Source: an uncultured Syntrophobacteraceae bacterium (GTDB lineage Bacteria; Desulfobacterota; Syntrophobacteria; Syntrophobacterales; Syntrophobacteraceae). From it: a DNA stretch of 28,003 nucleotides. The DNA is taken from positions 1 through 28,003 of the forward strand of contig CALBZH010000346.1 of NCBI GenBank assembly GCA_937889795.1. Reading direction: 5' to 3'. This document shows, piece by piece, positions 761-26,460 of the stretch; position 1 is the stretch's first letter; each line of letters opens with the position of its first letter. The translations under genes and the position numbers were made by a program. Below the pieces are notes generated by a model. The model searched no databases, was not told the DNA's origin, and saw only the letters and a list, made by a program, of their open reading frames with translations.

Positions 761-1792
761 ATGGACGTCATCGCGAAGCTCGGCATGGTCTTGGGCCTGT
801 CATTCATATCAGGCATCAATCTGTATGCCACCGTTGCGGTGGTGGGCTTCTGCAGCAAGTATCACTTGATCGAGGGACTCCCTCCTGAATTCGGTGTCCT
901 TGGGCATGACGCCGTCATCTTTGTCGCGGTCCTCCTCTATATCCTTGAATTTCTTGTTGATAAGATCCCGGGGATGGACACGCTGTGGGATCTCTTGCAC
1001 ACCCTCATCCGGCCCTTGGGCGGGGCAATGCTGGCGCTGATTCAAGTGGGTGAGGCGTCACCGGCTCTTGAGGTGATCGCCTTCATGGTGGGGGCGAGCA
1101 TGGCTTCCGCGGCCCACGTGTCGAAAGCGGGAGTTCGTCTGATCATCAACACGAGCCCGGAGCCGTTCTCAAACATCCTGGTCAGTCTGGCCGAGGACGT
1201 GGGGGCCTTCGGACTTGCCTACATGAGCCTCGCTCATCCGCGCATCCGCCTGGTCATCACGGTGCTGCTGCTGGGACTCCTCGCTTTTCTCATGCCAATG
1301 ATTCTCCGAACCGTGCGGATGCTGTTTTCGGCCATCTTTTACAAGGTCAAATGCTACCTCTGGAAAGAGACTGCCTGGACCATGGCACGCGCGGTTCCGT
1401 TTCAGCTGGATGCCTATTTTGAGCAGCAACGGGAGTCGGGAGAAAAGCTTTTATGGACCGGGCCGGCTTTTGCCGTGCGGCTGCCGGGAGCCCGCCGGTC
1501 GACAGCGCTGCAGGTGATGATCACCACCAAAGCCATCCTCGTCCTTCACCGCCACTGGTTTCGCAGGCAATCCCTGAGGCTCCCCCTCGAGGATCTCGAA
1601 TCGCACAAAACCTATCCAGGAATGCTTCTCAATAAGTGGCTCTTGCGTACGGTGCGCGGAGACTGGATTTTCCAGATCTACCAACCCCTCGCCAAGACGC
1701 TTCCGCAGGACTTGAAAGGAGAAGTCGACACTCGTGACAGAGCTCTCTTCACGGCCGCTGAGGACGGGTTCACCCAAGCGCCGGGCGTCTGA
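761..1792 (+). CDS. DUF4126 membrane protein with PH-like C-terminal region
   Basis: A 343-aa inner-membrane protein. The first ~185 residues match the DUF4126 pattern as I know it: a GINLYATV segment, then LPPEFGVLGH, then the VDKIPGMDTLWDLLHTLIRP signature and several hydrophobic helices up to a strong one around LVITVLLLGLLAFLMPMIL. The rest is soluble: from about residue 230 it shows a beta-rich pattern (LLWTGPAF, ITTKAILVLHRHWF, LRLPLEDLESH, GDWIFQIY) like bacterial PH (bPH-type) domains. ATG 761 is taken as start; in-frame GTG 758 and TTG 749 are alternatives and no well-spaced ribosome binding site decides. The 3' end overlaps the first GTPase gene by 59 bases, so the two are probably co-translated. 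Function unknown; the context suggests a membrane partner of the GTPases. Confidence 0.8.
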   Translation: MDVIAKLGMVLGLSFISGINLYATVAVVGFCSKYHLIEGLPPEFGVLGHDAVIFVAVLLYILEFLVDKIPGMDTLWDLLHTLIRPLGGAMLALIQVGEASPALEVIAFMVGASMASAAHVSKAGVRLIINTSPEPFSNILVSLAEDVGAFGLAYMSLAHPRIRLVITVLLLGLLAFLMPMILRTVRMLFSAIFYKVKCYLWKETAWTMARAVPFQLDAYFEQQRESGEKLLWTGPAFAVRLPGARRSTALQVMITTKAILVLHRHWFRRQSLRLPLEDLESHKTYPGMLLNKWLLRTVRGDWIFQIYQPLAKTLPQDLKGEVDTRDRALFTAAEDGFTQAPGV

Positions 1793-3476
1793 GAGGTTTT
1801 GGGACGACATACGCTGTCCCGGGTTGTCACCGGCGCTCGATGAGATTGTCCGGTTGAGTGCCGTCCTGCCAAAGAAATGGGCGGTTCGAGCCTACAAGCG
1901 GGCTCGAGACCGTGCTTGGGTGCTCTTTGTGGGAGGAACGGGTACCGGGAAGTCGACGCTGTTCAACGTTTTGTGCGGCAGCGCCTTGAGTGACACAGGG
2001 GTGGAGCGTCCCAAGACCCAGGGGCCGATCGCTTTCGTCCATCGAGACTGTGCTCTTGGGGAGGGATTTCCGTTCCCCGAAGTCCAACTTCGCCAAGCGA
2101 GCCCCGAAGCAACCGATCGGCTTCCGTTACAGGGGAATCCCGGACAGTTGTTCTGTGTGCACCATACGGAAGACCGGCTTGTGAAGATCGTGCTGGTCGA
2201 TACCCCTGACGTGGACAGCCTCGAAATCCGAAACCGTTTGATCGTGGAGGACCTTTACCTGCTGGCTGATTTGGTCGTGTTTGTCACCAGCGAGGAAAAG
2301 TATGCGGACGACATACCGTTTCAATTTCTGAAACGAATCCTGGCGGAAGACAAGCGGTGCACGGTGGTCGTGAACAAGTCCGGTGCGCTGCTTCAAAACG
2401 AGGATGTGCACGCATCGTTTGCTCAGCAAGGGGTGACGCTCCCCGCGCATCGCTTTTGGATCCTTCCCTTCGCTGTGGGGAAGCCCCAGGATTGTCTGCC
2501 GGGGGATCCATCATTCCGGGCGATGCTTGCCCAGCTCCTCGAGGATCTGGATCCGTCGGGTGTCCAGGATCTGCTGCGGCACGAGCTGTCGCGCGCCCAT
2601 CGCGAGCTGGCGACGGAGACACTCCGTTTGGTGGAGCTCCTGGGAGTCGAGGAGGCTGCGGGCAAACAGTGGCTGGAGCATCTGGACGTCTTCTTCAGGT
2701 CCTCGTGTCGCACGCTTTTGGACCAGCAGGAACGGCACCTCACCGAGGAGCATCGCGAAGCCATCCAGAGGGAGATTCGGAAGCTTTACAGCCGTTACGA
2801 CCTGCTTGGCGGTCCGAGACGCGCCCTGGCGCAGCTGGTTCGGGCTCCGCTTCGTGCCTTGGGCCTCGTGGGCGATTCGAAGAGCGAATCGCACCGGGAG
2901 TCGCTTCTGCGCATCCGAGAGAGAATCGACCTTGGTCCTATACAAGCCACGGTGGATGGCTTCAATCGGTTCGTGCTGGAGAAGCTTTCCCCCCGGACGG
3001 AGATGGCGCCGCTTTATCAAAGGCTTCGCGATCCGGCACTGGCCCTCACACAGGATGCCGTGAAGGAGATCGTCTGGGAAGAGCAGGAGCGGCTGGCGGG
3101 GTGGCTTGAAGCGACGTTCGACGAGCTTGCCCGCGGGATTCCCAAAAGCAAGGAATGGGGGATCTATTCCACGTCGATTTTGTGGGGGGGCCTGATTCTG
3201 GCCCTTGAGACCGCCATTGGTGGCGGCATCACGATCCTGGAGGCAGTCCTGGATTCCGCCATTGCGCCGTTCGTGACGCGGGGCGCGGTCGAGCTTTTTG
3301 TTTACCATGAGCTCCAGCGCATTGGCAAAGAGCTTGGCGAGCGCTACCGTGCGGGATTGCTTGCCGTGCTGCAGAAGCAACGGGACCGTTACGCGGATTG
3401 TCTGGAATCGCTCTTGACTCCGGAATCCGTTCTAACGCAATTGCGATCGATGGGCCGGGATGCACCCGCGCAGTGA
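1734..3476 (+). CDS. Dynamin-like GTPase A of a tandem pair
   Basis: A 580-aa P-loop GTPase. G1/Walker A is GGTGTGKST with K73 and S74; G3 is DTPD at 156-159; the G4 position is NKSG at 214-217, which lacks the Asp of canonical NKxD that confers guanine specificity. EKYAD at 188-192 recurs at the same place in the next gene. The remaining ~350 residues are mostly charged helices with heptad-like character, and a hydrophobic patch (about 480-515, WGGLILALETAIGGGITILE) could insert in the membrane. Length, N-terminal G domain, helical stalk and hydrophobic tip fit bacterial dynamin-like proteins, but a close family name is not certain. GTG start at 1734 is preceded by AAAGGAG at 1715-1721 and lies inside the preceding gene. 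Part of an apparent four-gene operon. Confidence 0.82.
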   Translation: MTELSSRPLRTGSPKRRASERFWDDIRCPGLSPALDEIVRLSAVLPKKWAVRAYKRARDRAWVLFVGGTGTGKSTLFNVLCGSALSDTGVERPKTQGPIAFVHRDCALGEGFPFPEVQLRQASPEATDRLPLQGNPGQLFCVHHTEDRLVKIVLVDTPDVDSLEIRNRLIVEDLYLLADLVVFVTSEEKYADDIPFQFLKRILAEDKRCTVVVNKSGALLQNEDVHASFAQQGVTLPAHRFWILPFAVGKPQDCLPGDPSFRAMLAQLLEDLDPSGVQDLLRHELSRAHRELATETLRLVELLGVEEAAGKQWLEHLDVFFRSSCRTLLDQQERHLTEEHREAIQREIRKLYSRYDLLGGPRRALAQLVRAPLRALGLVGDSKSESHRESLLRIRERIDLGPIQATVDGFNRFVLEKLSPRTEMAPLYQRLRDPALALTQDAVKEIVWEEQERLAGWLEATFDELARGIPKSKEWGIYSTSILWGGLILALETAIGGGITILEAVLDSAIAPFVTRGAVELFVYHELQRIGKELGERYRAGLLAVLQKQRDRYADCLESLLTPESVLTQLRSMGRDAPAQ

Positions 3477-3524
3477 GATGCTGCGGTGGTACGTGCCTTC
3501 CGAGCCGACATGCATTAGGTGACA

Positions 3525-5261
3525 ATGAGCAGACACATCCAGGAGCTGCGAGCTGAGCTCAAGCAAATTCGACGCGTGCTGGAGGAAGGCACGCTTCTGG
3601 CGCATGATCCGGAGCTCAACCGCGCGCTCGCCCTAGGTGTTGATGAAATCATCGAGAAGGCTGAGAGTGAGGTGTCAGGAAACCTGCTGGTGGGGCTCGT
3701 TGGCGGGACCGGCGTGGGGAAATCCAGCCTGACGAATGCGTTAGCGGGGCACCCGGTTGCCTCGTCCAGCCACAGACGCCCGCATACGGAACGGGTCCTC
3801 CTGTATCGACACGTGTCAAGCGTGCTGCCATCGGTTATCGCGGACCGCGTCGATCTGCTTCACGAGATTACCCATGATGCGGAGGCTATCGCGCAAATTG
3901 TCCTGTGTGATCTCCCCGATTTCGACAGCATCGTCCCGTCGCATCGCCGCCATGTACTCGATTTCATGGGCAGCCTAGATGTCCTTGTCTGGGTGGTGAC
4001 ACCGGAAAAATACGCCGACGGCAGCTTATACGCATTGCTTCAGGAGGTACCCAAATCGCAGGGAAACTTCGTTTTCGTGCTGAACAAGGCCGACCTGCTC
4101 TTCGAATCCGTTCCGCCGAGCGAAGGCTACGATCGGTTGGCGCGGGTGAGCGGTGTGTTCGCGCAGCACCTGACAAGCCATGGAATCGACTCTCCGGTGA
4201 TCTATTGCGTTTCTGCGGAGCAAATGCTGGAAGAGAAGACTGCTGCGCAGTGGAATCAGTTCCCCTTATTTCGAGACTTCCTGTTTCAGCGTCGGGAGGT
4301 TAAAGAGATTGCCGCCATCAAGTCCGCCAACCTGGATGTCGAGAAGCGTTCCCTGCTTCGACAGCTGGATGCTGAGATTCTGCGTATCAGGAGTCTGGTG
4401 GATGTTCTGGATCGTTTCGTGCGAGAGGTCGAGCGGGACCGAGCCGATTGGGTGCAAGTGGGGCAGCGTGCGATCCGGAGCTGGGTCTTCGGGCTCCCCC
4501 TGGAGCAGCTGGCCAGCCAGCGGAGTGATCCCGGGCAGACCTTGGCGGGGCCCGCCCTGTTGATGGCAATGTTGGCCCGTCGTTTTGGGGGCTCAAGCGG
4601 AGAGGGGTATCCCGTGAAGGTGGAAGTGGCTGGCTGCCCTGAGCCGATCGCTCCGCTGGCCGGACTCCGCCGCGAGCTGGATCGGTTCGCGGATCGCCTG
4701 ACACAACGCTTGCTGCAGGCTAAGCTGCCGCAGACGCTGATCGATGAGATTTGGCGTGATATCGGCATTGAGGATCGATGGGCGCGACTGGCGCGAGGCT
4801 TGGAGGAAACGACGGATGCGCTTGTTTTGGCGATGCTCGTTAAGCGGCGACGTGGATTTCGGTTCCTCCAGCGCATCGTTCATGGCAGTCTATATGGTCT
4901 GTTCGTGGCTTCTCTCGCTCGAGGCGAGCTGCTCAGCGCGGTGGTGCAGAGACCGAGCGTGTCCAATCTTCTGACGTTGTGTGTCGATCTGCTCTTGGGG
5001 CTTTTTCGGGCCACGGGCGTTGCGGCCTTAGGAAGCTTGGTCATGCTTCAGCTTTTTCTCGGGTGGCGATTTTTTCTTCGTCATAAGAAATGGTTGCAGC
5101 ACCGTACGCAACGGTTTATAGAGACTCTCGAACAAGCTCTGGTCAGGGTTTGGGAAAGCGAAATGGATGAGCTTTTGACCGCGTGCCGAAGGGTTGCTGC
5201 CGGCAGAGGAGCGACTGTGGAGCAGATCGAAGGGCTGAGGGGAGCAGGGAGAAAAGAATAA
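3525..5261 (+). CDS. Dynamin-like GTPase B of a tandem pair
   Basis: A 578-aa P-loop GTPase paralogous to the preceding one. G1 is GGTGVGKSS with K66 and S67, G3 is DLPD at 129-132, and G4 is a canonical NKAD at 187-190. The G3-to-G4 distance is 58 residues in both proteins, and both have EKYAD between them (161-165 here). A helical region follows, then two hydrophobic segments near residues 465-520 (LLTLCVDLLLGLFRATG, ALGSLVMLQLFLGW) that probably make a membrane hairpin. ATG 3525 has AGGTGA at 3517-3522; GTG 3519 overlaps that site and is less likely. The gap to GTPase A is 48 bases. Paired bacterial dynamins (for example the Leo and Campylobacter pairs) often act as hetero-oligomers; that this pair does so is inference. 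Confidence 0.84.
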   Translation: MSRHIQELRAELKQIRRVLEEGTLLAHDPELNRALALGVDEIIEKAESEVSGNLLVGLVGGTGVGKSSLTNALAGHPVASSSHRRPHTERVLLYRHVSSVLPSVIADRVDLLHEITHDAEAIAQIVLCDLPDFDSIVPSHRRHVLDFMGSLDVLVWVVTPEKYADGSLYALLQEVPKSQGNFVFVLNKADLLFESVPPSEGYDRLARVSGVFAQHLTSHGIDSPVIYCVSAEQMLEEKTAAQWNQFPLFRDFLFQRREVKEIAAIKSANLDVEKRSLLRQLDAEILRIRSLVDVLDRFVREVERDRADWVQVGQRAIRSWVFGLPLEQLASQRSDPGQTLAGPALLMAMLARRFGGSSGEGYPVKVEVAGCPEPIAPLAGLRRELDRFADRLTQRLLQAKLPQTLIDEIWRDIGIEDRWARLARGLEETTDALVLAMLVKRRRGFRFLQRIVHGSLYGLFVASLARGELLSAVVQRPSVSNLLTLCVDLLLGLFRATGVAALGSLVMLQLFLGWRFFLRHKKWLQHRTQRFIETLEQALVRVWESEMDELLTACRRVAAGRGATVEQIEGLRGAGRKE

Positions 5262-5264
5262 GCG

Positions 5265-5474
5265 ATGCCGATCAAGATTCTGATGGTCATAGCGGTGCTG
5301 GCAATTCCACTGGTGCCAACATTTTGGGCGATCCTAGACATCCCCAAGCGTTCGTTCCCAACACCGAAAAAGAAGGTCATATGGTTCTTCACCGTATCAA
5401 CCCTGCCGTGCATCGGTGCCATCCTCTATATTCTGATCGGACGGCGGCAGACCTTGCCGCTGCAGAGTCCGTGA
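5265..5474 (+). CDS. PLDc_N-type small membrane protein
   Basis: A 69-aa peptide with two hydrophobic helices (about 4-24 and 38-58) separated by a short polar stretch. The pattern FWAILDIPKR followed by KKVIWFFTV, LPCIGAILYILIGR is that of the PLDc_N family (the membrane anchor that precedes cardiolipin-synthase catalytic domains), here as a stand-alone protein. It starts 3 bases after the stop of GTPase B, so it is translated from the same message; a weak AGGGAG lies at 5246-5251. Anchor or assembly factor for the GTPases is the natural guess but unproven. Confidence 0.75.
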   Translation: MPIKILMVIAVLAIPLVPTFWAILDIPKRSFPTPKKKVIWFFTVSTLPCIGAILYILIGRRQTLPLQSP

Positions 5475-5570: not shown

Positions 5571-7472
5571 ATGCTGGGTCTTTTTAGAAAACACGCGACA
5601 TCATGGCTGATCAAAGTGGCATTTTTCCTCATCGTGATCGTGTTCGTCTTCTGGGGCGGATACTCGTACAAGATGAAGGAGGAAAATAAGGTTGCCGTTG
5701 TGGATGATTCCTACATCAGTGTCGGGGAGTACGACCGTGCTTACTCGAACCTGCTGGAGATGTATCGACGGCAGTTGGGGGGTGCGTTCTCCGATGAAAT
5801 GATGAAGAGCCTGAACCTCAAGAAGCAGGCCCTGGATATGTTGGTGGAGCGATACGTCCTGCGCAGGGCTGCCCAGCAACTGGGGTTTGTGGCATCGGAC
5901 CAGGAGATCCAGCAGCGGATCCTAGAATTTCCAGTTTTCATCCAGGATGGCAAATTCGACCAAAGACGGTATACGGCGCTGCTGCAGCAGAACCGGCTGA
6001 CTCCGGAAATGTTCGAGCACCAGATCGCGGACGAGATCAGTGTTCAGAAGGTCGAATCGTTCGTAAAGCGCAGGGCTTCTGTGACGGATGATGAGATTCG
6101 CGGTGATTTCGACTCCACCTTCGGACGGGTCAAGCTCGCGTACGCGCTCTTCGATCCAAAATCCTACGAGTCGCAGGTGAAGGTCGATGCAGACAGACTC
6201 ATGGCCTATTATCAAAATCACCAGGACGACTACAAGGAGCCCGAGAAGCGTAAGCTGGCGTATGTGCTGCTGAAGTTTGCGGATTTCGGGAAGAGCGTTG
6301 CCGTGACGGATGAACAAGTTCGGCGCGATTATGAAGACAACCTGGCGAAGTACCATCAGGAAGCCGAAGTCAAGGCGCGCCACATTCTGTTCGAGGTGAA
6401 AGAGGATGCACCCGAAGCGGAAGTGGGCAAGGTGAAGGCCGAAGCGGAGAAGGTCCTGGCCGAGGCCCGCAAAGGGGCCGATTTCGGGCAGCTTGCCACC
6501 AAGTATTCGAAAGACAGTGGCTCCGCCAAACAGGGAGGGGAATTGGGCTGGTTTGGCAAGGAGAAAATGGTTCCTCCGTTTTCCGAGGCGGCCTTTGCGC
6601 TGAAGCCGGGTGAGATTAGCGACTTGGTGCGCACCCAGTTCGGCTTCCATATCATCAAGGTGGAAGATGTCCGACCCGAGAAGACCAAGTCGTTGGAGGA
6701 AGTGAAGTCCGAAATCGTTGCTGCGATTCAAGACGAGAAGGGGCGTGAGAGTGCGTTGGACAAAGCTCGCGCTTTGGGTGACATGGCCTTCGCCCACAAA
6801 GACCTCGATAGAGCCGCAAAGGCTTTCGATCTCACGGTCACCGTTCCCGAGGGAGCCGGATTTGCTCAGACGGACAAGCTCCCTGGTCTCGAAGCCGCTC
6901 CCCCGACCGTAATGGGTAAGCTCTTCACGCTGCAGGATAAGGACGTGAGCGATGTGATGGATGTGGGCTCCGGCTACGCCGTCTTTCAGGTGCTGGCTAT
7001 TCAGCCGCCAGAGCCCAAGCCCTTTGAAACCGTGAAAGACTCGGTGGAAAAAAGTTACAAGACAGAAGAGGCGCGCGTGTTGGCGCAAGCGAAAGCGACC
7101 GAGCTCTTGGATGCAGCCAAGAAGAGCGGCAGTCTCGAACAGGCCGCCAAGTCAGCCGGGGCCGAGCTGAAGCAGACGGGCGCGTTTTCGAGGCGGCAGC
7201 CGGATAAGGATCTCAAGTTTAGGGGAGATGGCCTCAATGCAGTGCTCCAGCTTCAGCTGGACCACCCTTTCCCCGATTCTCCGGTTCAGGAGCTCAGCAA
7301 TCGCTATGTAGCCGTCCAGCTTCTTTCCAGGGAGCCTCCTGATGCGGACTTCGAGAAGGAGAGCCCCACAATCGCGAAACGGATCCTGCAGCAAAAAGAG
7401 AACAGCTTGTGGCAGGCATGGCTGACTGCCGAGAAGGAAAAGGCGAAAGTAAGAATTATCAAGACCCTCTAG
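5571..7472 (+). CDS. ppiD: PpiD/SurA-type peptidyl-prolyl cis-trans isomerase
   Basis: A 633-aa membrane-anchored periplasmic foldase. Residues ~12-31 form one N-terminal transmembrane helix after a basic start ([11 protein letters not shown]), with the rest in the periplasm. Residues ~35-170 are a SurA-N-like chaperone region ([27 protein letters not shown]). A parvulin domain covers ~266-360, with the hallmark [20 protein letters not shown] and FGFHIIKV motifs. The C-terminal ~270 residues form the second chaperone lobe seen in PpiD. Length agrees with E. coli PpiD (623 aa). AAGGAGG at 5553-5559 precedes ATG 5571. It helps fold outer-membrane and secreted proteins leaving the Sec translocon. 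It is separated by a hairpin from the GTPase cluster and converges with the yajD-like gene. Confidence 0.93.
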
Positions 7473-12286: not shown

Positions 12287-13513
12287 TCACATAACGTCTT
12301 TCTCACTCATTTCAATAGCCTTGTCAATCTCCGCCTTGAGCTGTGGCGGCAGTCCGGGGACATCGACGCTCAAGAAGCCGCGCACGATGGTTGCCACCGC
12401 CTCATCTTCCGTAAGCCCGCGGGACATGAGGTAGCAGATCTCCTCCTGCGCGATCTTTCCGACGGCAGCCTCGTGAGACATTTCCACGCCGTCGACGTGC
12501 CCTTCCAGTTCGGGCACGGCATAGATCAGCCCTCCTTTGATGATGAGACCCTTGCATTCCAGGTGCGCCTTGATTTCAGGAACCTCCCCGATCAGGTGCC
12601 CCCTCGAGATGATCCGTCCCCCGTTGCTAATGGTCCTGGCAACGATCTCGGCTCGGGTTCCGGGCTTCTTAAGATAGACACGCCCGCCGACATCATATTC
12701 GGATCCGGGGCTGCCCACGATGATGCTGTTCAGGCGGGCCACGGCATTTTCACCCACTAGGTGCGTCGTGGGGTACATCTGGAGGGTTCGACACGGCTTC
12801 ATGCAAACGTAGTTATTGAGAAAAAGGCCTCCAGCCTCTACTTGGGCCACCGATCGGGGTCGCACCACCATGTCTTCCGCCCAGTTGTGAATCATGGTGA
12901 AGCTGAGCTTGGCGTTTTTCTTAATATAGAATTCCGAGATGCCTACGTGCGCTCCCTTCTTTGAATGGGGCGACGTCGAGCACCCGGTGATGACATGAAG
13001 CTCCGAATCTTCTTCCGCGATGATGATATTGTGAACGTTTTGCTGCAGCCCGTTGGTATTGATATACAGGCAGGCTTGAATTGGGTAGATGCTCTTGGCG
13101 CCGGGCAAGGCTCGGATAACGTAGCCGTTGTGCAGATTCGTCTCCGCGGCGGCCGTGTATTTGTCGGCATCAACGGAAGCCAGCTTCCAATAGTAATCCC
13201 GGATCCAGTCGTGCTTTTCCAACGCCTGGCGAATCGGGATCACCTCGATGCCTTCCTGCTTCGACTCACAGTGAATGACGGAAGTGTCCTTCTGAAAGAA
13301 AGTTCCGCCGCGTCCCTCTTCGGTGACGTCCACGCCAGCCAGAAGAAGCCGCTGGACCTCCTCGTCCGGCAAGGTCTTCAGCTCTTCATCGCTCAGATAT
13401 TCGTAGCTTTCGGAAGTCGTTCGAAACCCCATCAGATCGATATCGGGACCGAGGGGCGCTTTCTTGTCCAGGGCTTTGGCCGCTTGTTCTTTCAGCTGTT
13501 CTCGATCGTACAT
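12287..13513 (-). CDS. sufB: SufB/SufD-family Fe-S scaffold protein (minimal SMS/SUF type)
   Basis: A 408-aa member of the SufBD family, the scaffold partner of the SufC ATPase in iron-sulfur cluster assembly. The right-handed beta-helix core is seen as repeated strands (ELHVITGCST, VGISEFYIKKNAKLSF, NSIIVGSPGSEYDVGGRVYLK), and the C-terminal helices carry the family signature SHEAAVGKIAQEEICYLMSRGL and EAVATIVRGFLS. It is shorter than E. coli SufB (495 aa) and seems to lack the cluster-binding cysteine in the GDKCGAHTFP loop of that protein. ATG 13513 is preferred, with GAGGA 9 bases upstream; ATG 13522 abuts that site. The start lies within the end of sufC (22-base overlap), implying coupled translation. 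Confidence 0.9.
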   Translation of the reverse strand: MYDREQLKEQAAKALDKKAPLGPDIDLMGFRTTSESYEYLSDEELKTLPDEEVQRLLLAGVDVTEEGRGGTFFQKDTSVIHCESKQEGIEVIPIRQALEKHDWIRDYYWKLASVDADKYTAAAETNLHNGYVIRALPGAKSIYPIQACLYINTNGLQQNVHNIIIAEEDSELHVITGCSTSPHSKKGAHVGISEFYIKKNAKLSFTMIHNWAEDMVVRPRSVAQVEAGGLFLNNYVCMKPCRTLQMYPTTHLVGENAVARLNSIIVGSPGSEYDVGGRVYLKKPGTRAEIVARTISNGGRIISRGHLIGEVPEIKAHLECKGLIIKGGLIYAVPELEGHVDGVEMSHEAAVGKIAQEEICYLMSRGLTEDEAVATIVRGFLSVDVPGLPPQLKAEIDKAIEMSEKDVM

Positions 13514-14256
13514 CGCACACATTCCTCATATCCAACTTCGCTGATGCAGCGAAAGATTTCCCTCGGATTGGTGCTGCAGCTCATCACGCCATTGAACAGC
13601 AGCTGCCCTTTGTCCACGGCGACATAATCCAGAATATGTCCCGTGTGAGTGATGATGAGGCCCATCTTGGTTCGATCCCGCCTGACCTGCAGCCGGGATT
13701 TGGTGGCTGTCGCCGAGCACTCCTTTTCAAGCAGTCTGGCGATGGTTTCGCCGACCAAAGCGATGTTCTCAATGTCGACCCCGGATTCCGGCTCATCAAA
13801 GAGCATGAGGTCGGCTCCCTGGGACATGAGCTGGAGGAGCTCGGAACGCTTGATTTCCCCGCCCGAGAACCCGGCGTTCACGTCCCGGTCGAGGAAATTC
13901 TCAAAATTCACTTTCCGGGCCAAACCCTCCACATCCACGTCGCTCCGGGCGCAGATTTGAACCATCTGCCGGGTCTTCAGGCCGTGAATGGTGGGAGGAC
14001 GCTGATAGGACATGCCGATTCCCAAACGGGCTCGCTCGTCGATGGGAGCGTAAGTGATATCCACCCCTTTGAAAACGATTTTGCCTCCCGTGACCTTGTA
14101 CTGGGGATATCCGACGATGGTCATCAACAGGGAGGTCTTGCCCGAACCGTTGGGTCCGAACAGAACGTGGGTTTCCCCTGGCTTGATCTCCAAATCAATG
14201 TGCTTGAGTATGGTTCTTCCTGCAAGCTCTACCTGAAGATCTTCGATCAAAAGCAT
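13492..14256 (-). CDS. sufC: SufC-type Fe-S assembly ATPase
   Basis: A 254-aa ABC ATPase that powers the SufB scaffold. Walker A is GPNGSGKTS (G34-K40), Q loop YQRPPTIHG, signature FSGGE (130-134), Walker B LMLFDEPESG with catalytic E155, and H-loop H204 in LIITHTGHILDYV. An insertion of about 19 residues (about 180-198, ECSATATKSRLQVRRDRTK) lies between Walker B and the H loop compared with E. coli SufC. The C-terminus YEECVRC has two cysteines typical of archaeal/anaerobe SufC. GGAGGGGC precedes the ATG. No sufS, sufU, sufD or rrf2-type regulator gene is adjacent. Confidence 0.93.
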   Translation of the reverse strand: MLLIEDLQVELAGRTILKHIDLEIKPGETHVLFGPNGSGKTSLLMTIVGYPQYKVTGGKIVFKGVDITYAPIDERARLGIGMSYQRPPTIHGLKTRQMVQICARSDVDVEGLARKVNFENFLDRDVNAGFSGGEIKRSELLQLMSQGADLMLFDEPESGVDIENIALVGETIARLLEKECSATATKSRLQVRRDRTKMGLIITHTGHILDYVAVDKGQLLFNGVMSCSTNPREIFRCISEVGYEECVRCTIENS

Positions 14257-23082: not shown

Positions 23083-23285
23083 GCATGCTCCTCGATGCCC
23101 AGTAGAAATGATGACGCCTTCAGAATTTCCCTTTTTCGAGGGACCTCGTTGGACTTGGTGTCTGCCCGCGGCGTCGTTCAGTTCATGTTCAACGTATTCT
23201 TTCAGTTTCCCGTGTCGATGACAAGACTCGCATTCTGCACGGCGGCAGTGGACGAGCGGACCTAAACGAGGGGGAGGTGGTCAGC

Positions 23286-25223
23286 ATGGAGAAGATGATG
23301 ACGAACGTGATCTATGGGGTCAGTCTCATGACTGAGTTTGATGTCTACCTCTTCAAGCAGGGCAACCATTTTCACCTGCATGAGAAGCTTGGGTCGCACC
23401 TGATGGCGGTGGATGGTGTCGAAGGGACGCTCTTCGCTCTCTGGGCGCCCAACGCTAGGGAGGTTTCCGTTGTTGGCGATTTCAACGGATGGATACCGGG
23501 GACGCACTATCTGGGAGCCCGAGGGGACGATTCCGGCATATGGGAAGGCTTCATTCCCGGCGTCGGGCGGGGGAGTCTTTACAAGTACCACATCGTGTCC
23601 AAGGAAAACGAATACAAGGTGGACAAGGGAGATCCGTTTGCGTTCAACTGGGAAATTTCTCCGAAGACGGCCTCCGTGGTGTGGGACCTGGAGTATCACT
23701 GGAACGACTCGGATTGGCTTCGAGACCGGCACAAAGTGAATTCCCTCGGTGCTCCCTTCTCCATTTATGAAGTTCACCTGGGATCGTGGCGCCGCGTGCC
23801 GGAAGAGAACAAGAGGCCACTCACCTACCGAGAGCTGGCCCAATCCCTCCCCGGATACGTCAGGGACATGGGTTATACGCATGTGGAGCTTCTTCCGGTC
23901 ATGGAGCATCCCTTTTATGGGTCGTGGGGATACCAGACCCTCGGGTATTTCGCTCCCACCAGCCGTTACGGGACGCCCCAGGATTTCATGGCCCTGGTCG
24001 ACGCACTCCATCAGCAGGGCATCGGGGTGATCCTCGACTGGGTGCCCTCGCATTTTCCCAATGACGAGCACGGTCTCGTCTATTTTGACGGGACACACCT
24101 GTTCGAGCATGAAGACCCGCGGAAGGGGTATCACCCGGAATGGAACAGCTGCATCTTCAATCACGGTCGTTACGAGGTCCAATCCTTCCTGATCAGCAGT
24201 GCACTCTTCTGGCTGGAGCAATTCCATGCAGATGGACTGAGAGTCGACGCAGTGGCCTCCATGCTCTACCTGGACTATGCGAGAGAGGAGGGGGAGTGGA
24301 TCCCCAACCCTTACGGCGGAAAGGAAAATATCGACGCCATCCATTTTCTCCGGCGCATGAACGAAGCCCTCTATGAAAAACAGCCGAGCGTGCAAATCAT
24401 TGCGGAGGAATCCACGGCCTGGCCCATGGTCACACGTCCCACCCACGTCGGTGGACTGGGGTTCGGCATGAAGTGGAACATGGGGTGGATGCACGATACG
24501 CTGGATTATTTCTCCAAAGATCCCATCCATCGGAAATACCACCACAATCAGTTGACGTTCAGCATCTGGTACGCTTTTTCCGAAAACTTCGTCCTGGCTT
24601 TGTCCCATGATGAGGTGGTCCATGGCAAGGGCTCCCTCATCCGAAAGATGGCCGGCGACGACTGGCAAAAGTTCGCGAACCTCCGACTGCTCTTCGGCTA
24701 CATGATCACGCATCCCGGCAAGAAGCTTTCCTTCATGGGGTCGGAGCTGGCGCAATGGTCGGAGTGGTACCACGAGGAGAGCCTTGAGTGGCATTTGTTG
24801 GAGATGCCGTTTCACCAAGGGGTACAGAGGTGGGTAAGGGAGCTGAACCATTTGTATCGCAGCGAGCCTGCCCTCTATGAGCTTGATTTTTCGGGAGAAG
24901 GATTCAGCTGGATCGATTGCGGCAATTGGGAAGAAAGCGTGGTCAGCTATATCCGGAAGGCTCGCTCCAACAGCGACGTGATCCTTGCCGTATGCAACCT
25001 GACACCCGTTCCGAGGCACAATTACCGGGTGGGAGTCCCCAGCGGGGGGTTCTGGAAGGAGCTCATGAACAGCGACGCCAAGGAGTACGGGGGAAGTGGC
25101 CAGGGGAACTTCGGAGGGGCCGAGGCCGATTCGATCCGTTTCCATGGGCGTGACCATTCTCTGGCGCTGACGCTGCCTCCGTTGGGCGTGGTCGTCTTGA
25201 AAAAGGACGCGGATGGGAAGTGA
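23286..25223 (+). CDS. glgB: 1,4-alpha-glucan branching enzyme
   Basis: A 645-aa GH13 enzyme that cuts an alpha-1,4-glucan chain and re-attaches it by an alpha-1,6 bond during glycogen synthesis. A CBM48-like N-terminal domain covers about 40-125 (FALWAPNAREVSVVGDFNGW). The barrel has YEVHLGSW, the nucleophile D321 in DGLRVDAVASM, acid/base E374 in IIAEEST and D442 in LSHDEVVHGKGS; their spacings (53 and 68 residues) equal those of the E. coli triad 405/458/526. It lacks the extra N1 domain of the 728-aa E. coli enzyme, as in many other bacteria. GGGGAGG at 23271-23277 fits ATG 23286; GTG 23277 overlaps that site. No other glycogen gene is adjacent. Confidence 0.96.
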   Translation: MEKMMTNVIYGVSLMTEFDVYLFKQGNHFHLHEKLGSHLMAVDGVEGTLFALWAPNAREVSVVGDFNGWIPGTHYLGARGDDSGIWEGFIPGVGRGSLYKYHIVSKENEYKVDKGDPFAFNWEISPKTASVVWDLEYHWNDSDWLRDRHKVNSLGAPFSIYEVHLGSWRRVPEENKRPLTYRELAQSLPGYVRDMGYTHVELLPVMEHPFYGSWGYQTLGYFAPTSRYGTPQDFMALVDALHQQGIGVILDWVPSHFPNDEHGLVYFDGTHLFEHEDPRKGYHPEWNSCIFNHGRYEVQSFLISSALFWLEQFHADGLRVDAVASMLYLDYAREEGEWIPNPYGGKENIDAIHFLRRMNEALYEKQPSVQIIAEESTAWPMVTRPTHVGGLGFGMKWNMGWMHDTLDYFSKDPIHRKYHHNQLTFSIWYAFSENFVLALSHDEVVHGKGSLIRKMAGDDWQKFANLRLLFGYMITHPGKKLSFMGSELAQWSEWYHEESLEWHLLEMPFHQGVQRWVRELNHLYRSEPALYELDFSGEGFSWIDCGNWEESVVSYIRKARSNSDVILAVCNLTPVPRHNYRVGVPSGGFWKELMNSDAKEYGGSGQGNFGGAEADSIRFHGRDHSLALTLPPLGVVVLKKDADGK

Positions 25224-25275
25224 GGACCTCGGCCATACTGCAATTGAACAAGCATCGCGTTTGGAGAAATCGCCA

Positions 25276-26460
25276 ATGAAGCCCTTGCCTCTGACTCCAA
25301 TCCACGGGTGGCTGGTTGAAACAAGACGCGCACTGCACCGGATTCCCGAGCTTGGGTACAGGGAGCTCAAGACAGCCGCTTTCATTGCCGAGCAACTGAG
25401 GGCGCTCGGAGTGGAATGTCGAAGCGGGGTTGGCGGAACCGGGATCGTTGCCCGCATCAAAGGGCGGCGGCCGGGTCCGACCCTTGCCCTCCGAGCGGAT
25501 ATGGATGCGCTTCCCCTGCAGGAGCAAAACCAGGTCGACTACCGATCGGAGCATCCGGGTGTCATGCATGCGTGCGGTCATGACGGGCATGTGACGATGC
25601 TGCTCGGAGTCATTCGGACCCTGGTGGACCAAGCATGGCATCGGGACGGTGCTGGCTCAAGGGTCTTCGTCTTTCAGCCGGCCGAGGAAGGGGGGGCCGG
25701 GGCTCGAGCAATTCTGGATTCCGATGTGGAGGAGCTCAAGGACGTCTCGGCGTACTTTGCGGTGCACTTGCATCCCGAGCTTCCCGCAGGCCAGGTCGGG
25801 CTTTCCTTGCGCGTCAGCAACGCGGCGTCCGATGCAATCAAGATTCGGCTGACCGGGAAGGGCGGACACGGGGCGCAGCCGCATCTGTGCGTGGACCCCA
25901 TCGTGGCCGGAGCCCATTTGGTCACGGCACTCCAGAGCATCGTCAGTCGAAACGTCCATCCCCTGGACAGTGTTGTGCTCACCATCGGCCGCTTTCGGGC
26001 CGGGACGGCTTCCAACATCATTCCGCAGGAAGCGGTGCTGCAGGGGACCCTGAGAACGCTTGACGAAGGGGTTCGCAGCAGGGTGCTGGCGCGTTTGGAG
26101 AGCATTGCGCGCGGCGTGGAAGCCAGCCACGGTGCTCGAGTCAAACTGACCGTGACCCCCGGTTATCCGCTTCTGGTGAACGATGAACATGCGGCCCGGT
26201 TTGCGATGGAACGGGCCCGGGGTCTGCTCGGACCGGAGTGCGTTCACGAAGAGCGGCCTCGCATGGGCTCGGAGGATTTTGCCTACTTTCTCCAGCGGGC
26301 GCCCGGGGCATTGATCCGGCTCGGGTGTCATGATCCGAGCCTTGGGTTTCGGTACGGCCTTCATTCACCCTGTTTCGACATGGACGAGCGCGCTTTGGAT
26401 GTGGGAGTGCTGTTGTTCCTGGATCTCTTGGATCACTACGGGTCTGGGACCGATAGCTGA
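25276..26460 (+). CDS. M20-family amidohydrolase/peptidase
   Basis: A 394-aa di-metal hydrolase of the hippurate/N-acyl-amino-acid amidohydrolase type. Marks in order: RRALHRIPELGYRE at 17-30, LRADMDALPLQE at 72-83, metal ligands C100 and H102 in HACGHDGH, catalytic and metal Glu 137/138 in QPAEEGG, VHLHPELPAG, the dimerisation domain GKGGHGAQPH, and MGSEDFAYF near the end. It removes acyl groups from amino acids or small peptides in the cytoplasm. ATG 25276 matches the family's usual start; ATG 25213 (AAGGA upstream, overlapping glgB by 11 bases) would add 21 poorly conserved residues and cannot be excluded. It follows glgB closely, so co-transcription is likely. Confidence 0.92.
   Translation: MKPLPLTPIHGWLVETRRALHRIPELGYRELKTAAFIAEQLRALGVECRSGVGGTGIVARIKGRRPGPTLALRADMDALPLQEQNQVDYRSEHPGVMHACGHDGHVTMLLGVIRTLVDQAWHRDGAGSRVFVFQPAEEGGAGARAILDSDVEELKDVSAYFAVHLHPELPAGQVGLSLRVSNAASDAIKIRLTGKGGHGAQPHLCVDPIVAGAHLVTALQSIVSRNVHPLDSVVLTIGRFRAGTASNIIPQEAVLQGTLRTLDEGVRSRVLARLESIARGVEASHGARVKLTVTPGYPLLVNDEHAARFAMERARGLLGPECVHEERPRMGSEDFAYFLQRAPGALIRLGCHDPSLGFRYGLHSPCFDMDERALDVGVLLFLDLLDHYGSGTDS

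Follow-up and report, generated by a model that had tools for sequence, protein, structure and literature searches.

A tandem GTPase pair of predicted dynamin-like type and a linked membrane protein with a predicted PH domain in an uncultured Syntrophobacteraceae bacterium

Dynamin-like proteins (DLPs) that work in pairs are already described from bacteria. In Campylobacter jejuni, Cj-DLP1 and Cj-DLP2 are encoded side by side, their G domains are reported to need contact with each other for GTP hydrolysis, and tethering of membranes by the two has also been described (PMC6104087). Streptomyces DynB is described as having two transmembrane segments and a partner, DynA, and as acting with the membrane protein SepX (PMC8748795). 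BDLP1 and the mitofusins, as set out in a paper on LeoA, have a hydrophobic tip where classical dynamins have a PH domain (PMC4159319). PH domains also occur in bacteria (PHb, DUF1696/PF08000), and further PHb families are reported to include potential membrane proteins with an intracellular PHb (PMC2817789). The locus described here lies in a 28,003-nt stretch of DNA from an uncultured Syntrophobacteraceae bacterium (contig CALBZH010000346.1; hereafter the window). It comprises five plus-strand genes, g1 to g5 in that order: g1 encodes a DUF4126 membrane protein with a predicted PH domain, g2 and g3 a pair of GTPases, g4 a PLDc_N peptide and g5 a PpiD-like chaperone (Table 1). Paired DLPs and PHb domains on membrane proteins are known, and what is new within the open-licence literature is their combination. 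In that literature we found no report of a PH membrane protein linked to a bacterial DLP pair, only an unrelated mention of DUF4126 in the full texts, and nothing relevant by title on dynamin in Desulfobacterota.

Pfam detects Dynamin_N (E 1.7e-7, above the cut-off) and MMR_HSR1 in g2, and the predicted structure continues past the G domain into a helical neck and trunk, with N- and C-terminal segments joining in the neck. The leading Foldseek matches are mitofusin/Fzo1, the Nostoc BDLP and the Campylobacter structures 5owv/5oxf, and the structural alignment includes the N- and C-terminal helices beside the G domain. By its predicted fold g2 is thus dynamin-like, as the initial annotation had expected beyond the G domain, and it shares its overall fold class with the Campylobacter pair. 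A hydrophobic tip in place of a built-in PH domain, as described for the mitofusins and BDLP, is proposed for g2: the model places a two-helix hairpin (residues 474-497 and 499-514) near the C-terminus, partly at predicted local distance difference test (pLDDT) values below 50, and a hydrophobic window lies there in 27 of the 33 aligned g2 rows. For g3, Pfam reports MMR_HSR1 (E 2.7e-6) and, below the cut-off, Dynamin_N (E 2e-5); all 34 aligned g3 rows have the hydrophobic window, and g3 may also have a dynamin neck and trunk. Searches of solved structures by single sequence and by profile found no close relative of g1, g2 or g3; the profile matches were mostly short P-loop ones (Era/Der-type GTPases, IRG, Toc34 and others), and no NCBIfam model scored above its cut-off for this family.

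DxxG is the usual G3 motif of GTPases and is not decisive for fold. At this position all 240 listed homologues (120 each for g2 and g3, on which the motif counts are based) have DxPDxDS, not DxxG. DxPDxD[STG] occurs in 111 of 111 proteins from the window and from deltaproteobacterial, planctomycete, Omnitrophota and Hydrogenedentota loci, and DxPD in both proteins of an actinobacterial (Nonomuraea) locus. Since G3 is DxPD, g2 and g3 are called dynamin-like by fold and not by biochemistry. The Thr that we assign to the G2 position is invariant (Thr95 in alignments A1 and A4, Thr90 in A2; A1, A2 and A3 denote the profiles and alignments of g2, g3 and g1, respectively). The subunits differ at G4: NKxD is complete in all 120 g3 homologues, whereas its Asp is found in 19 of the 120 g2 homologues. 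Many Planctomycetota depart from the motif in both subunits (NMVD-like or NQ-type, and QTHA-like). When 90 proteins of 45 loci are placed on a tree, 2 changes between the labels 'upstream' and 'downstream' are required, against a mean of 30.3 in 500 shuffles, which is consistent with an ancient duplication after which gene order was conserved. Deep in this tree the branches are long and weakly placed, and the upstream proteins from Phycisphaerales/Omnitrophota and from Nonomuraea group with downstream proteins.

The DUF4126 identity of g1, proposed in the initial annotation, agrees with Pfam (E 2e-47). Pfam finds no PH domain in g1, so the PH assignment rests on the structure model (mean pLDDT 80.6), in which the C-terminal domain has the seven-stranded sheet of the PH fold; where a C-terminal capping helix would lie, the model has only a short helix (residues 312-315) and a low-confidence one (328-334). 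The top structural match of this domain is the PHb protein 3hsa, with other PH domains tied, and the PH-like domain that had been suggested for g1 is therefore borne out as a computed prediction. DH-PH exchange factors are among the fold matches; the matched rows span residues 214-330, and no DH part is claimed. Pfam bPH_3 appeared below its cut-off (E 0.018) in one of 33 g1-family members scanned, and a basic residue in the beta1-beta2 loop is conserved at the level of sequence.

These features set the locus apart from each described system. Against the Campylobacter pair, g2 and g3 have DxPD in place of DxxG, profiles detect no sequence kinship with solved DLPs, and the term 'PH domain' is absent from the main text on the Campylobacter pair (PMC6104087). 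Mitofusins and BDLP differ in that here two distinct tandem subunits carry DxPD and the PH domain comes from a neighbouring gene. Streptomyces DynA/DynB, compared by description only, are likewise two partner DLPs with DynB anchored in the membrane, and an actinobacterial tandem exists in the g2/g3 family, but their reported partner is SepX and not a PH protein (PMC8748795). Unlike the described PHb domains, that of g1 shares a protein with DUF4126 and is tied by gene linkage to two GTPases. Eukaryotic classical dynamins share the combination of a dynamin-type GTPase with a PH domain, joined here by gene linkage, with the PH domain on a separate membrane protein and the GTPases bearing their own hydrophobic segment.

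Co-occurrence was assessed in 297 genomes from the phylum of Desulfoferrobacter. The A2 profile identifies 24 carriers of g3 (E<=1e-25), and A1 finds g2 in 23 of them (E<=1e-30); the other, G249, has a weaker g2 (95 bits) beside g3. In 20 of the 24 carriers g2 and g3 are adjacent on one strand, with a gap of -122 to +286 bases measured from the first possible start codon. The exceptions are G110, G170 and G284, with the genes on separate contigs, and G114, with 2.2 kb between them. The G114 interruption (L093 7098-9225) holds open reading frames (ORFs) matching a resolvase (3.8e-19) and a TnpB/Cas12f1-like TNB domain (4.6e-18) and reads as a putative IS607-type insertion; both GTPase frames are still open. 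The A3 profile matches 22 of the 297 genomes (E<=1e-20), and in 8 of these the match extends through the PH domain. All 8 PH-bearing genes lie directly upstream of g2 (gap -56 to +21), whereas none of the 14 genomes with a short DUF4126 (match ending at profile positions 186-230, frame of 206-267 residues) carries the GTPases. PH extension and pair are associated at a Fisher's exact p of 3e-6, uncorrected for kinship. Two further carriers, G081 and G114, have upstream of g2 a gene of only 160-164 residues, with no hydrophobic segment, that matches just the end of A3 (positions 176-309 and 181-296; 41 and 35 bits), neither having been an A3 row. Because these two genes match the PH part alone, the constant part of the partner looks like the PH domain and not DUF4126.

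The initial annotation had proposed a set of four genes, g1 to g4. They travel together in 10 of the 24 carriers, where g1 or its PH-only counterpart stands with the pair, g4 and g5 lie downstream of g3, and g5 adjoins g4 in 10 of 10 cases, making a fifth member; the remaining 14 carriers show the GTPases alone. For the refuting condition set by the initial annotation, that the four genes do not occur as a set, the outcome is mixed, and the wider unit is the GTPase pair and not the four-gene set. Pfam confirmed the PLDc_N identity of g4 (9e-8), and an alignment of 13 g4 sequences has 17 invariant columns. Of the 297 genomes, 11 have the close g4 type (E<=1e-33), namely these 10, several of which were query rows, and G263, which was not; the other 35 of 46 g4 matches are far weaker (E 9e-18 or worse). 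Among 26 deltaproteobacterial loci (L001-L025, L064), 19 show both GTPases and 8 a PH partner adjoining g2 (L001-L004, L008, L017, L018, L064). There is no g3 in the 2.9 kb downstream in L008, and L019 and L020 end too early to show one.

The pair extends well beyond this phylum. Among 41 other loci, from Planctomycetota, Omnitrophota and Hydrogenedentota (L026-L063, L065, L066, L073), the profiles detect two consecutive GTPases in 29 and a single one in 12, some of them at contig ends. Of 149 Planctomycetota genomes, 26 match a planctomycete profile of g2 type (E<=1e-20), 7 at full length and 19 in the G-domain region only; in the same 149 genomes A3 finds no PH-bearing DUF4126 and one weak match to the DUF4126 part. 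In Nonomuraea gerenzanensis (L081 3302-7677), a tandem in overlapping stop-to-stop frames corresponds by profile to g2 followed by g3, as in the window, and a link to Streptomyces DynA/DynB is possible. The collection's table has no annotated feature at this place.

The explanation that we favour, with modest confidence, is a heterotypic, membrane-anchored dynamin-like pair served by a PH partner in trans. Computation shows the genes and how they pair, the folds predicted for g2 and for the PH domain of g1, the asymmetry of the motifs and the tie between PH extension and pair; the dynamin trunk of g3, GTP hydrolysis, heterodimerisation, lipid binding, contact between g1 and the GTPases and a physiological role are what we infer beyond them. 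In this model, g2 and g3 would be heterotypic mitofusin-type GTPases with a G domain, a helical neck and a trunk, anchored by their hydrophobic C-terminal segments in the cytoplasmic face of the inner membrane. By analogy with the heterotypic contact described for Campylobacter (PMC6104087), they may form a hetero-oligomer in which the most likely contact is between the two G domains, made across or along membranes. As the guanine-specificity motif is complete in g3 and usually incomplete in g2, the main GTPase is probably g3, which g2 would complete or regulate. The multi-helix membrane anchor of g1 would carry its PH domain on the cytoplasmic side, where g1 could act in trans as a lipid sensor or recruiter that tunes the pair, a role like that of the built-in PH domain of animal dynamins. 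The machine might bend, tether or patch the inner membrane and, in the clade of the window, be coupled to the membrane proteins g4 and g5; the PLDc_N peptide and the PpiD-like chaperone point to the inner membrane and its outer face as the place of the system. Envelope upkeep or repair is our first, weakly held choice for a physiological role, and division support the second.

Several results weigh against this favoured explanation. The initial annotation had called g2 and g3 paralogous GTPases of about 580 residues; their lengths are 580 and 578, and a profile comparison supports paralogy in the G domains, but a comparison without the G domains gave only E 0.026 and a probability of 1.9. Whole-length homology is thus not claimed, and confidence in the favoured explanation, as in the joint claim given further on, is lowered accordingly. 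Four deltaproteobacterial loci (L021, L023, L024, L025) have a g2-like gene and no g3 in the fetched flanks, possibly a single-subunit version. Other findings suit a rival in which g1, g4 and g5 form a separate membrane-protein quality-control unit that merely shares an operon with an unrelated GTPase pair. G263 has g4 beside a PpiD-like g5 and no GTPase match (L109 4920-7049), so that g4-g5 may be a unit of its own; in the 14 carriers with the GTPases alone, neither g1 nor g4 is found anywhere in the genome and g5 is not found around the pair, several of the pair-bearing contigs ending close to it; and L010 has g2-g3-g4-g5 with no g1, its upstream neighbours lying on the opposite strand and having no PH match. 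This rival is nevertheless unlikely: the PH extension occurs only beside g2 (8/8, against 0/14 short forms in GTPase-bearing genomes), and the two PH-only genes occupy the same place upstream of g2. Moreover, where the cluster of G284 is split between g2 and g3, with neither piece at a contig end, g1 stays with g2 and not with g4-g5, which lie with g3 on another contig. G170 appears to be split in the same way, but both of its pieces are no more than 2 kb from contig ends.

An accessory role in cell division, as for Streptomyces DynA/DynB, would have the GTPases stabilise the division ring at the membrane and g1 serve as a septum-placed anchor. The Nonomuraea tandem, with its profile matches, order and DxPD motif, lends weight to this idea, as do the two transmembrane segments, DynA partner and SepX co-actor described for DynB (PMC8748795) and the g2-type matches in Planctomycetota, a phylum described as being without ftsZ (PMC4164004). 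However, no division gene was recognised among the neighbours scanned, and most of the 297 and 149 genomes lack the family, which would not be expected of a core division factor; we consider such a role distinctly unlikely. Phage defence or abortive infection, which the initial annotation had listed and which recalls the population-level phage resistance reported for Bacillus DynA (PMC8844932), is highly improbable and was rejected as first choice. PADLOC, applied to g1-g4, gave weak matches only (LeoA for g3 at E 3.3e-6, best over residues 142-294; LeoBC for g2 at 0.0043), and a pattern-based scan of viral contigs confirmed no relative. The neighbours scanned with Pfam look like genes of metabolism, transport and the envelope, with no defence gene recognised by name, and the pair order is kept across phyla and not scattered as in a mobile defence island.

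Under the favoured explanation, the GTPases retain a hydrophobic segment and a neighbouring membrane protein supplies a PH domain in addition; in the genomes searched PH-DUF4126 occurs only beside these GTPases. If g1 and the GTPases touch, this would be a simple bacterial system in which dynamin recruitment could be separated from remodelling through the deletion of a single gene. DxPD and the split into a canonical and a degenerate subunit offer a direct test of the division of labour in heterotypic DLPs, and the relatives in Planctomycetota make the family of interest in a phylum described without ftsZ. The joint claim is that no bacterial dynamin-like system with a dedicated PH sensor in trans was recognised before this one, and that it belongs to a multi-phylum, usually tandem mitofusin-type DxPDxDS family in which g3 has full guanine recognition and g2 is a degenerate regulatory partner. 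This claim is put forward tentatively and is open to real doubt; if true, it would be a natural test of how the PH domain became joined to dynamins.

Table 1. Features of the g1-g5 locus; positions are those of the 28,003-nt window.
Feature	Position	Strand	Basis or remark
g1, membrane protein, DUF4126 and C-terminal PH domain (predicted)	761..1792	+	ATG start; Pfam, structure model
g1 DUF4126 membrane domain, residues 12-182 of ORF from 749	782..1294	+	Pfam; hydrophobic segments
g1 PH-like domain, residues 214-330, seven strands	1388..1738	+	structure model
g2, dynamin-like GTPase 1 (by predicted fold), 580 aa	1734..3476	+	GTG start; Pfam, homologues, model
g2 G1/P-loop GGTGTGKS	1932..1955	+	kept in 120/120 listed homologues
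g2 G3 position DTPDVDS (DxPD in place of DxxG)	2199..2219	+	
g2 G4 position NKSG (no Asp of NKxD)	2373..2384	+	Asp in 19/120 listed homologues
g2 hydrophobic helical hairpin near C-terminus, residues 474-514, proposed membrane tip	3153..3275	+	hydropathy
g3, GTPase 2, G-domain paralogue of g2, 578 aa	3525..5261	+	ATG start
g3 G1/P-loop GGTGVGKS	3702..3725	+	kept in 120/120 listed homologues
g3 G3 position DLPDFDS	3909..3929	+	DxPDxDS in 120/120 listed homologues
g3 G4 NKAD, canonical NKxD	4083..4094	+	NKxD in 120/120 listed homologues
g3 hydrophobic segment, residues 484-520 of ORF from 3519	4968..5078	+	
g4, PLDc_N protein, 69 aa, two hydrophobic segments, no catalytic domain	5265..5474	+	
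g5, PpiD/SurA-like peptidyl-prolyl isomerase	5571..7472	+	SurA_N_3 and PPIC domains

The packing of the first four frames is exactly as initially annotated, with a 59-base overlap between g1 and g2 and gaps of 48 (g2-g3) and 3 bases (g3-g4); g5 follows g4 after 96 bases. An alternative TTG start at 749 would lengthen g1, and most aligned homologues start at the internal Met. A GTG at 3519 would give g3 580 residues; its two closest homologues have 578. The closest homologues span 99-100% of g1, g2 and g3, a sign of real genes, and the close relatives come from metagenome genomes labelled Syntrophobacteraceae by their sources. A promoter and terminator scan gave no signal clearly above shuffles, the RNA families and tRNAs searched for were not found, and the FMN reductase family gene before g1 (37-672) has no counterpart in the 66 loci listed.

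The neighbours of the pair vary. In other lineages an ABC transporter, a CDP-alcohol phosphatidyltransferase, LptF/G or an M16 peptidase adjoins it, and, as these lipid and envelope neighbours vary by lineage, no function is drawn from them. At the g1 position, L012 (7306-7953, by Pfam) and L013 (2557-3171, same cluster) have a CDP-alcohol phosphatidyltransferase, a phospholipid-synthesis enzyme. The g2-like DxPD GTPase of L023 is followed by M16-peptidase and HflX-type GTPase genes (Pfam), with the same clusters in L024 and L025. In eight Planctomycetota loci (L047, L055, L058, L059 and others) the next gene after the pair encodes a fused solute-binding/permease transporter (Pfam for L047), and its start overlaps the end of the second GTPase in L047 and L055; in several of the eight an ABC-ATPase cluster gene comes after it. 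Planctomycete ORFs upstream of the pair (e.g. L047 5969-6928), which cluster among themselves and with the frames of the GTPases, were considered as fusion partners and rejected; one was scanned and had no Pfam match, and they look like shadow ORFs. Elsewhere in the window, a SufBD-core protein and an ABC ATPase are encoded as a pair on the minus strand (12287-14256), and genes of the same clusters lie downstream of the L001, L003 and L004 clusters. Two long ORFs overlap on opposite strands at 23262-25460 (-) and 23277-25223 (+); the minus-strand frame, of 732 residues, has no Pfam match at 1e-5, and at most one of the two is likely to be real.

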